This document shows, piece after piece, positions 30,591 through 35,250 of a stretch of DNA of 64,000 nucleotides. The stretch spans positions 186,001-250,000 of the forward strand of contig NZ_JAJLRA010000007.1 of assembly GCF_020991365.1 (NCBI RefSeq), written 5' to 3'. The DNA comes from Streptacidiphilus sp. ASG 303. GTDB taxonomy: Bacteria; Actinomycetota; Actinomycetes; Streptomycetales; Streptomycetaceae. Every line of letters starts with the position of its first letter. Within the stretch, counting starts at the first letter, position 1. The notes below the pieces were generated by a model. It did not search any database, was not told where the DNA came from, and worked only from the letters and a program-made list of their open reading frames with translations. The position numbers and the translations under genes were made by a program.

Positions 30591-32137
<1,547 letters not shown>

Positions 32138-32387
32138 GGGGCTCCCTGTCCGGGTCGGTGGTGTCCGGGCCGACGGTGTCGCGCCGCCGCCCCGGGGTGC
32201 GCCCGGACGGCGGCGTGCGGGCGCCCCCGGCACAGGGGCGCCCGCACGGCATCATCGCGTGTCCACCCGTTTGCTGCCAGCGGGTTTCCCGGCGCGCCGC
32301 CGCGGCCCCGTCCGTGCACGGACCGTGGTCCGCCCCCGCGCCGTCGGACCCGGCCCCGGCCCGGCGGTCCGGGACGGGGGAGCGCCG

Positions 32388-32888: not shown

Positions 32889-33749
32889 TCAGTCCGCCTC
32901 GGGGGAGCCGGTGATCCGCAGCTTGCGCTGGACCCGCTGGTAGAAGGTGGTCCGGCCGAGCCGCACCACCCGCGAGGCCCCCGGCAGCACGGCGACGCCG
33001 ACGCTGTCGCCGGGCCCCACCCGCCCCACCACGCGCCCGTCGGCCTCCACGGCGAGCTCCCCGCTGCGCGGCAGCACGTCCAGCTCCAGCTTCTCGCCGC
33101 CCGACAGGTACAGGGCCCGGTTGAACGCCGAGTGCGGTGCCACCGGCGTCACCAGCACCCCCTCGGCGCCGGGCGAGACGATCGGCCCGCCCGCCGAGAA
33201 GCTGTACGCCGTCGAACCGGTGGGCGTCGCCACGATCACCGCGTCCGCCGCGTAGCTCACGAAGGCGTGCCCGTCGACCCGGATGCCGACCGCCGCCGAG
33301 CGGTCCCCGGGCACCCGCACCAGGGCGATGTCGTTGAAGGCCAGCTCCTCGCAGCCGCCGCCGACCGCCCGGACGCCCGAGCGCTCCTCCACGGTGAAGC
33401 GGTGCTCGTCGATCGCGCACAGCGCCTCCGGCACCTCCGGGATGTCCACCTCCGCGAGGAACCCCAGCCGGCCGACGTTGACGCCCAGGACCGGCGTGCC
33501 GACGCCCGCCGCCAGCCGCATCGCCCGCAGCATGGTGCCGTCCCCGCCCAGGCTGAGCACCAGGTCCGCCCGCCGGACGAGCTGCCCGGCCTCCACGGCC
33601 ACCGCCGCCCCGTCCAGCCGCGCCGCCTCCCCGGGCGAGGCCAGGACCGTCCCGCCGCGCGACCGGGTCCACTCCACGATCGTCGCGACCGTCTCCGCGC
33701 ATTCCCGCTCCGGGTGCAGTACCAGGCCCACCGTGTTGACCAGTCCCAT
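32889..33749 (-). CDS. nadK: NAD kinase
   Basis: A 286-residue enzyme phosphorylating NAD to NADP. The catalytic GGDGTML motif lies near residue 69, NDIAL near 140 and the glycine-rich TPTGSTAYSFSAGGPIVSP region near 180. Length and order match actinobacterial NAD kinases. The usual neighbours (recN, tlyA) are absent, so this is either a second isoform or a relocated gene. ATG 33749 is well placed after GGGAGCCGGCGGC. Confidence 0.92.
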   Translation of the reverse strand: MGLVNTVGLVLHPERECAETVATIVEWTRSRGGTVLASPGEAARLDGAAVAVEAGQLVRRADLVLSLGGDGTMLRAMRLAAGVGTPVLGVNVGRLGFLAEVDIPEVPEALCAIDEHRFTVEERSGVRAVGGGCEELAFNDIALVRVPGDRSAAVGIRVDGHAFVSYAADAVIVATPTGSTAYSFSAGGPIVSPGAEGVLVTPVAPHSAFNRALYLSGGEKLELDVLPRSGELAVEADGRVVGRVGPGDSVGVAVLPGASRVVRLGRTTFYQRVQRKLRITGSPEAD

Positions 33750-33967
33750 GCCGCCGGCTCCCGTGCTCGCTCCGACCCGTCCACCCTCCAGTCACGCACA
33801 CCCGGCCCCCGGCCACAAGGCGCCCCCGCGGGCGCCGGGGTCCGCCGCCCGGGCCCCGCGGCGGGCGGCGCGCGGTAGCGTGGTCCGCCGGAGGCGGATT
33901 CCTGCCGAACACGCCCCGCACGCAACGCCGTTGACGTCCGGGACCGGGCCGAGGTGCGGAGGTGCGG

Positions 33968-34243
33968 ATGACGGGGCGGGAGCTGTCGCCGGCGGACCAC
34001 ACCAGGAAGGAGGTCCGCGAGGTCCTCCAGCGGCTCGTCTGCGACCGGGGGTGGACGCTGCGCAAGGGCGGGCACTGGGGCGTCCTGCACTGCTCCTGCA
34101 GTCCGCTCTGCACCCGGGTCCTGGTGCCGGGGACCCCCCGGAGCGCGAGCACCGCGGCCCGCCGGATCGCGCAGGCCGCGGCCCGCTGCCCGAAGCCCGA
34201 GGACGACCCCAGCCGTCCCCCGAGAGGCGGCGTTGTCGTTTGA
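33968..34243 (+). CDS. HicA-like small protein, candidate toxin
   Basis: A 91-residue protein with GGAGG five bases before ATG 33968 (GTG 33962 is an alternative). The core (VREVLQRLVCDRGWTLRKGGHWGVLHCSCSPLCTRVLVPGTPRS) resembles the HicA mRNA interferase fold, a small dsRBD-like domain with a catalytic histidine after glycine; H36 in KGGHW would be that residue. The three cysteines (C44, C46, C50 approximately) are extra. It precedes an HTH protein by 90 bases, the order of hicA then antitoxin. The relation to HicA is by eye only. Confidence 0.6.
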   Translation: MTGRELSPADHTRKEVREVLQRLVCDRGWTLRKGGHWGVLHCSCSPLCTRVLVPGTPRSASTAARRIAQAAARCPKPEDDPSRPPRGGVVV

Positions 34244-34248
34244 CAACG
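34231..34248. promoter_or_regulatory. Inverted repeat between the HicA-like gene and the HTH gene
   Basis: CGTTGTC-GTTT-GACAACG, perfect 7-base arms around four bases, overlapping the stop codon of the HicA-like gene. It is relatively AT-rich for this genome and is a candidate operator of the HTH protein encoded downstream. Confidence 0.5.
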
Positions 34249-34332
34249 GCGGCCCGCTGGGCGAAGCTGCGGCGGGGGACGGCGGACCCCGGTGCCCCGG
34301 TCCGGGCGGCACCGTCCGGGAGAGCGGGGCGT

Positions 34333-35250
34333 ATGGAGTTCGAGTTCACCTTCGTCGTCGACGGCGTCACGCCGGACGACGAGGCGGCCGCGACGGTCCT
34401 CGTCGAGCGGTTCGACGGGCTGCTCGCCGAGCACCGCGGCCGGTGCCTGCTCACCGTCTCCGCCGAGGCCGGCACCGCCCTGGAGGCCGCGCACGCCCTC
34501 GTGACCGGTCTGCGACGCGCCCTCCCCGGTCTGCGCGTGCTGCGGCTCGACCCCGAGCTCGTCGGGGTCTCCGACATCGCGGAGCGCTGCGGGCGCAGCC
34601 GCCAGAACGTCGCCCAGTGGGTCGGCGGGGAGCGCCGGGCCGCGGCCGAGGCGCCCTTCCCCGAGCCCGAGGGCACGGCCGGGCACTCCCTCGTCTGGCG
34701 CTGGGCCGAGGTCAACGCCTGGCTGGCGCGGGTCGGCGCCGACGACGGCATGGCGCGCGCCAGCCGCGACGAGGCGCTGCTCGTCGACCTCTCGCTGCGG
34801 TTCTGGCAGGAGCCGGAGGGCCCGCACGCGGCGCCCGGGCAGACCCTGGAGATCACCGTGGTCGCGGACGGCGACGAGCACCGCGAGGACCGCGAGTACG
34901 TCCGCACCCACCTGGACCGGATGATCGCCGAACGGCCCGAGGTGCTGAGCCACCTCGCGGGGCTGCCCCGGGGCGACGCCGGCCGGCTCGTGGTCGTCTG
35001 CGCGGTGCCCTTCGACCGGCTGGACAGCGTGGTGCGGCTGCTCGGCCCGCACACCGCCTCCGGCGCCCTGGCCGTGCGCACGGGCGACTCCGAGCTCCAC
35101 CTCACCGCGCTCTCGGCCGTCCCGCTCCCGGGCACCGTGCCGATCGACCGGCTCGGCCTCGGCGAGGGGGCCACCGTCGCCGACCTGGTCCTGCTCCAGC
35201 GCAATGGGTCGGTCGCCCCGCCCACCTCGCTGGCCCTGCCCGTCGGCTGA
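34333..35250 (+). CDS. HTH DNA-binding protein with long C-terminal extension, candidate antitoxin
   Basis: A 305-residue protein. Residues 1-75 (MEFEFTFVVDGVTPDDEAAATVLVERF) look like a small alpha/beta domain seen before AlpA/MerR-like HTH in actinobacterial regulators paired with HicA-like proteins. The HTH is near residues 76-100 (VGVSDIAERCGRSRQNVAQWVGGER), then SLVWRWAEVNAWLAR to about 136. Related proteins that I know end there; this one has about 165 more residues, with LEITVVADGDEHREDREYVRTHLDRMIAERP and a DRLDSVVRLLGPH segment that I cannot assign. It probably regulates or neutralises the preceding gene product. Confidence 0.65.
   Translation: MEFEFTFVVDGVTPDDEAAATVLVERFDGLLAEHRGRCLLTVSAEAGTALEAAHALVTGLRRALPGLRVLRLDPELVGVSDIAERCGRSRQNVAQWVGGERRAAAEAPFPEPEGTAGHSLVWRWAEVNAWLARVGADDGMARASRDEALLVDLSLRFWQEPEGPHAAPGQTLEITVVADGDEHREDREYVRTHLDRMIAERPEVLSHLAGLPRGDAGRLVVVCAVPFDRLDSVVRLLGPHTASGALAVRTGDSELHLTALSAVPLPGTVPIDRLGLGEGATVADLVLLQRNGSVAPPTSLALPVG

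Follow-up and report, generated by a model that had tools for sequence, protein, structure and literature searches.

Relation to hicAB and PDC-M06 systems

In hicAB type II toxin–antitoxin systems of classes 3 and 4, as presented in the available part of PMC10865869, the toxin gene comes first, the toxin has a HicA fold with a conserved histidine, and the operator is palindromic. The antitoxin joins an N-terminal binding module to a DNA-binding domain, and a regulated promoter would favor its synthesis. In hicBA classes 7 and 8, the same part of that paper describes long antitoxins (216–233 residues, and 331–356 or 342–356, the text giving both ranges) beside a HicA domain; the antitoxin gene is first there, and the antitoxins carry DUF1902 or lysyl-tRNA-synthetase-like domains and no recognizable DNA-binding domain. 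A further related kind is PDC-M06 of PADLOC-DB v2.0.0, a two-gene defense candidate. PDCs are guilt-by-embedding candidates and mostly unvalidated, according to the accessible text of PMC12988326. Our full-text literature search returned no paper naming PDC-M06, and no published test of its anti-phage activity was found.

The gene pair described here lies in a stretch of 64,000 nucleotides, referred to as the window, of the 7.0-Mb genome of Streptacidiphilus sp. ASG 303. Two open reading frames that had been delimited in a sequence-only reading were confirmed. Gene A (33968..34243, + strand; ATG at 33968, stop at 34241–34243) encodes 91 residues, predicted to be a ribonuclease toxin of HicA fold, and gene B (34333..35250, + strand; ATG at 34333, stop at 35248–35250) encodes 305 residues, a predicted antitoxin and autorepressor. 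The genes lie on the same strand with 89 nt between the stop of A and the start of B, and their G+C contents (0.762 and 0.769) match that of the window (0.773). The neighbor on one side is an NAD kinase gene (PF01513/PF20143), that on the other a GAF-SpoIIE-HATPase gene; each runs on the opposite strand.

In PADLOC-DB, A matched PDC-M06A with an E-value of 2.7e-5 (no curated cut-off is given for this model) and a HicA-like model with 3.6e-5, while the adjacent B matched PDC-M06B with 5.6e-15 over residues 9–135. Both proteins match PDC-M06, a widespread family, so the kind is already catalogued, and the proposal of a new module holds only in part. The gene order is that of the relatives examined. 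In contrast to its relatives, window A matches weakly: six relatives score between 8e-14 and 7e-27 against PDC-M06A, and the PDC-M06 scores of the short-form relatives and of those in Polymorphobacter, Annamia and Escherichia phage Cyrano are far better than those of the window pair. Moreover, window B has a C-terminal domain of about 145 residues beyond the PDC-M06B match, which ends at residue 135. The Cyrano pair CYRAN_51/CYRAN_50, annotated as HicA and putative antitoxin HicB, matches the PADLOC models at 1.2e-19 and 1.3e-32 and has the operator motif in common with the window, but its B is short (187 residues) and its operator lies upstream of A, covering the −35 element of an 11/12 consensus promoter with 17-bp spacing.

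Compared with hicAB, the window pair would share the features of classes 3 and 4 named above; however, the HicA HMM misses A, and B has an extra domain after the helix-turn-helix (HTH). Collectively, the Streptomycetaceae form differs from the known kind by the C-terminal domain of B, the full intergenic operator and a four-cysteine set in A, and no description of this form was found in the literature searched (largely open-access, bioRxiv excluded). The HicA-like fold, the toxin–antitoxin organization and the unusual size of the partner, all put forward in the sequence-only reading, are supported by structure prediction and co-conservation. We consider it probable that A and B form a type II toxin–antitoxin module in which B binds A and, by means of its HTH, acts as a transcriptional repressor at GTTGWC half-sites. 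This explanation draws on what was observed here: the joint conservation of the genes, the predicted fold, the conserved motif, the modular build and the cases in which A is lost and B kept.

Whether such a module would serve phage defense is a separate matter. In an abortive-infection role, infection would inactivate B, perhaps through its C-terminal domain, and free A, as opposed to a stabilization or addiction function. The listing of the family as candidate PDC-M06, the presence of relatives in phage-plasmid and phage genomes, and the proposal, in the available part of PMC10865869, that HicA domains act in phage defense all point this way; yet the candidate status is based on genomic association, and the immediate neighbors here are NAD kinase and SpoIIE-type genes. 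We regard this role as possible, leaning somewhat toward doubt. Adephagia gp91 is reported to be toxic and to be neutralized by gp90 (PMC11797047, available part). As a precedent for toxicity in the A family it was rejected, since gp91 has, by inspection, the sequence of a canonical HicA.

Protein A and the three-part protein B

The Gly-Gly-His motif noticed earlier in A is present (G34-G35-H36), whereas the cysteines number five (C25, C42, C44, C48 and C74) and not three. Except for C25, these cysteines are invariant in 14 aligned A sequences; window A and all 14 retain these four along with H11, H36, G28 and W37. The motif histidine is found in 14/14 clade sequences (after Gly in 11, after Ala in 3) and in 13/13 rows of a wider alignment, A8 (after Gly in 10, after Ala in 3). 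In A it opens the second strand, a HicA-type feature, and in HicA the conserved histidine is catalytic. The motif histidine is missing from two distant A-like proteins (L051:1492–1710 and L052:1513–1728). Next after each comes a small protein with no visible HTH, and these pairs may represent a sister module whose chemistry differs.

The model of A is alpha-beta-beta-beta-alpha with a mean pLDDT of 78. When the 55 chains returned by Foldseek were structurally realigned, the first row was HicA of Burkholderia pseudomallei (PDB 6g26; Z 5.4, rmsd 2.9, 57/60 residues), and the second row had a Z of 2.5; Foldseek alone gave no significant match, with 6g26 at E 6.1. Based on these comparisons, A is predicted to have a HicA fold and is most likely a small RNA-cutting toxin. 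At the sequence level the relationship is faint. A falls below all Pfam and NCBIfam cut-offs, PF07927 (HicA_toxin) gives no match to it up to E 10, and no PHROG matches it. In its genome, PF07927 finds nothing at E<=0.001, while as a control it matches in 7/14 named genomes. Comparing an A profile with seven HicA sequences gives weak scores (probability 4.9%, E 0.008; 1.2% in a second comparison), and within the short aligned stretch the A-family G-H falls on the G-S-H of HicA. PDB sequence searches with the A and B family profiles returned no credible match.

Protein B comprises three parts. Residues 1–76 (34333..34560, + strand) are predicted to form a ferredoxin-like domain, proposed as the A-binding module; residues 77–136 (34561..34740, + strand) are an HTH of the AlpA/excisionase type; and residues ~161–305 (34813..35247, + strand) form a clade-specific C-terminal alpha/beta domain. 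The N-terminal topology is predicted as beta-alpha-beta-beta-alpha-beta, with ferredoxin-like matches up to Z 7.3, a middling value. The model of B is only fair (mean pLDDT 66.5, from 11 sequences): the HTH is modeled with pLDDT below 50, the C-terminal part reaches 71–90 in 10-residue blocks over residues 171–305, and matches in a Foldseek search with the whole model come mostly from the N-domain. HicB has a partial RNase H fold, whereas the N-terminus of B has no match to the HicB Pfam models up to E 10 and shows the ferredoxin-like topology in this model. Should A be a toxin that a ferredoxin-like antitoxin binds, a HicA fold would be paired with a different antitoxin fold. Pfam matches to the HTH are below cut-off, and Pfam and NCBIfam give B no assignment. 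An internal repeat relating the N-domain to the C-domain was considered and rejected (hhalign probability <1%).

Across the loci, B occurs in three builds. An N-domain without an HTH match is found in L070 and L080 by profile and in L010 by inspection, L070 ending at a stop that may mark a truncation. The N-domain with HTH occurs in, for example, L059–L065 (173–205 residues), and the third build adds the C-terminal domain. The earlier statement that usual relatives of the enlarged partner stop after the HTH broadly holds, as short-form B proteins have about 170–220 residues and, among the loci searched, the C-terminal profile matches only Streptomycetaceae long-B loci (next L069, E 0.13). The C-terminal region alone matched in 6/297 family genomes: in G283 at E 8e-4, and in five others at E<1e-16, where every match falls on a B gene. 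This search misses three long-B genomes, the most divergent ones, that the profile recovers.

Distribution and pairing of A and B

Among 297 genomes of the family, A matched at E<=0.001 in 12, eight of them at 1.1e-20 or better. B adjoins A in all eight of these clear genomes, and in one (G153) A has an in-frame TGA. Among the weak A matches, L010 is a distant A, and L009, L011 and L012 look spurious. B itself matched in 13/297, and the five additional genomes have an A match nearby in L022, L023, L024 and L025, with none near L021. A scan of the genome collection with B returned 10 Streptomyces loci, and merging it with the family search gave 17 distinct long-B loci. A looks intact in 14 of these 17. 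The other three have B with A missing (L035), reduced to a C-terminal part (L037) or interrupted by TGA (L020), the last of which could be a sequencing error.

At the phylum level, a profile of 14 A proteins matched 11/396 genomes and a profile of the N-domain and HTH of B matched 44/376, each count including the genome of the window. Pairing was assessed at the 30 loci that this B profile search returned, 14 with the N-domain and 16 with the HTH only. A stands beside 12/14 N-domain loci (the window among these) and 0/16 HTH-only loci, so A tracks the N-domain of B, in a test that is partly circular, as four profile rows come from loci found with A. Within the N-domain group, A is frameshifted in L067, a weak divergent candidate in L071 and absent from L069; for the five newly found N-domain loci (L065, L067, L068, L069 and L071), A is present in 3/5. 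A and B are a real co-inherited pair. The sequence-only reading had staked its proposal in part on A folding like HicA and on the genes being conserved together; A models as HicA, and the genes are co-conserved.

The neighboring genes vary among 11 loci compared with a crude ORF caller. Shared neighbors occur in two small groups, L039/L041/L042 and the window with L036 and L037. In the latter three genomes a tldD-like gene (window 30593–32233) lies near the pair while the other neighbors are mostly different, and its vicinity is perhaps a preferred insertion neighborhood. The NAD kinase beside the pair (window 32889–33749) has only 35–46% identity to its best matches in two same-genus genomes and so looks extra. 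No copy of A or B was found in the two other genomes of the genus searched. In the same-genus genome G001, the SpoIIE-type gene can be aligned and the flank toward A/B cannot, so that no empty site is readable.

For mobile elements, a short-form A (L050) matched 238 plasmid records and three phage records. Window A and B had no match among the plasmid records at the limits used, window A had none among phages, and window B had phage matches only at E 0.1 or worse. A 296-residue protein of Rhodococcus phage Whack gave a viral match at E 8.2e-6 and is absent from the phage-collection searches. An IMG/VR scan with the A query (A1) found no relative; one IMG/VR contig (L110:5001–5480) carries an orphan B that ends shortly after the HTH; this locus gave no match to the A profile, and an operator-like GTTGAC-N5-GACAAC stands upstream. 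In Gordonia phage Agueybana (MZ274304.1), gp45 is a B-like HTH protein beside the immunity repressor. An unannotated 96-residue ORF (L109:2149–2439) overlaps the gp45 start there. Its match to the A profile is weak (3.4e-5, in a search of 30 sequences), but the G-H is present, and it may be a missed toxin gene.

The predicted operator and its possible role

A perfect inverted repeat at 34231–34248, seen previously between A and B, was confirmed. A bare repeat of this kind is unremarkable, because the window holds 257 inverted repeats with 7-bp arms and 0–6-bp spacers. The reading of this repeat as an autoregulatory operator gains support from motif conservation. As a motif it exceeds chance: the window has a single GTTGWCNNNNGWCAAC, against none in 100 shuffles, GTTGWC-N4-GWCAAC occurs once in the 7-Mb genome (reversed-pattern control, 0), and this N4 motif is exact in 15/17 long-B loci and present in 16 when one mismatch is allowed (L015). 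The remaining locus is L035, where A is lost too, and in L019 both arms are changed together (GTTGAC...GTCAAC). The uniqueness is limited to the 4-nt spacing, since with any spacer of 0–8 the genome has two sites and the control two. The second genomic dyad, L111 (G000:C118:1060–1072), is a tight-spaced GTTGTC-T-GTCAAC and may be due to chance, the control being equally frequent. On this motif evidence, the inverted repeat is likely the operator of B (GTTGTC-GTTT-GACAAC, 34232..34247), overlapping the stop codon of A (34241–34243) and a −35-like TTGACA (34240–34245). Although the right arm carries TTGACA, no sigma-70 consensus promoter was found around the window operator; in the leader from operator to B (34248..34332, + strand), inspection reveals a partly conserved block where a −10 element is expected.

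A regulatory pair with no toxin, in which A would be a nucleic-acid-binding cofactor and B an AlpA/excisionase-type regulator of an integrated element, would fit the match of B to PHROG 2620, "excisionase and transcriptional regulator" (5.5e-9 over residues 4–136), a like annotation of the SSU5 homolog and the place of Agueybana gp45; nevertheless, we judge it improbable, as the single N4 site gives no sign of a wider regulon at that spacing, A models as HicA, and loss or breakage of A with B kept, in 3/17 loci, is common for toxins.

Upstream of A, the window has a lone left half-site, GTTGAC (33930..33935, + strand), which at 9/12 (p 0.28) does not reach significance. Some clade members have both half-sites here, as a tight-spaced dyad (0–1 nt spacer) lying 45–49 nt upstream of A. 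With spacers of 0–8, six of 15 clade loci reach p<0.05: the dyad is perfect in L016, L040 and L041 and 11/12 in L015, L017 and L036. It is 10/12 in L039 and L042 (p 0.15 and 0.19), and nothing was found in L033, L034, L038, L019 and L020, while L018 has a borderline 10/12 match elsewhere (p 0.06). The idea that the operator had simply shifted from upstream of A to the intergenic position was dropped, as the spacer-4 scan behind it had missed these tight-spaced upstream dyads. Among 19 wider relatives, the N4 motif at p<0.05 is present in nine and was not detected in ten; in contrast to the intergenic window site, it lies upstream of A in eight of the nine, and between the genes only in L068. 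Cyrano and a proteobacterial plasmid of Polymorphobacter have the site upstream of A. With spacers of 0–8, 6/19 have a site upstream of A at p<0.05.

That the locus is a degenerate or domesticated relic under the control of B with A inactive is likewise improbable, for although A is absent, truncated or interrupted in 3/17 long-B loci and window A, beside only half an upstream site, departs in places from its relatives (TPRSAS versus TPRNP), the conserved residues of A and the intergenic operator are intact.

For the type II toxin–antitoxin module that we favor, A would act as a HicA-fold ribonuclease toxin, the ferredoxin-like domain of B would bind and neutralize it, and the HTH would repress transcription at paired GTTGWC half-sites. 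RNase activity, neutralization, DNA binding, promoter logic, the trigger role and the defense function are the parts of this explanation that we infer. Because the only full site in the window is intergenic and overlaps the −35-like TTGACA before B, repression by B would fall most heavily on its own promoter; after a loss of B, or a build-up of free A, the antitoxin would be the first to be made again. A logic of this kind is reported for P2, the second promoter of Escherichia coli hicAB, which HicB represses and from whose transcript only HicB is made (PMC10865869, available part). In clade members with the tight-spaced site upstream of A, control of A is also likely, and both genes may be controlled there; control of A may extend to the window as well; exclusive control of B is thus proposed for the window alone, and the idea that B represses mainly itself is weakened by the upstream dyads in 6/15 clade loci. 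The C-terminal domain would most likely provide a trigger or control stability; sensing of a phage product is one example.

A broader reading, which we find tentative and rather unlikely, is that PDC-M06 is a toxin–antitoxin class in which a ferredoxin-like, non-HicB antitoxin holds a HicA-fold ribonuclease, beyond the 14 HicA contexts given in the available part of PMC10865869. The Streptomycetaceae form would then be a switch of three parts: the antitoxin would carry a sensor domain, a strong intergenic operator would uncouple the supply of B from that of A, and a weaker tight-spaced site upstream of A would be decaying. The toxin–antitoxin reading favored here offers a candidate defense family a concrete mechanism, one that names two toxin residues (H36 and H11) and an operator and sets apart an additional domain. 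Moreover, a single clade with both a wide-spaced intergenic operator and a tight-spaced upstream one would amount to a natural experiment in how toxin and antitoxin supply become uncoupled. In L016 (1371–1410), an imperfect second operator copy, CTGTCGTTTGACAAG, lies directly upstream of the exact copy, which suggests a double site.
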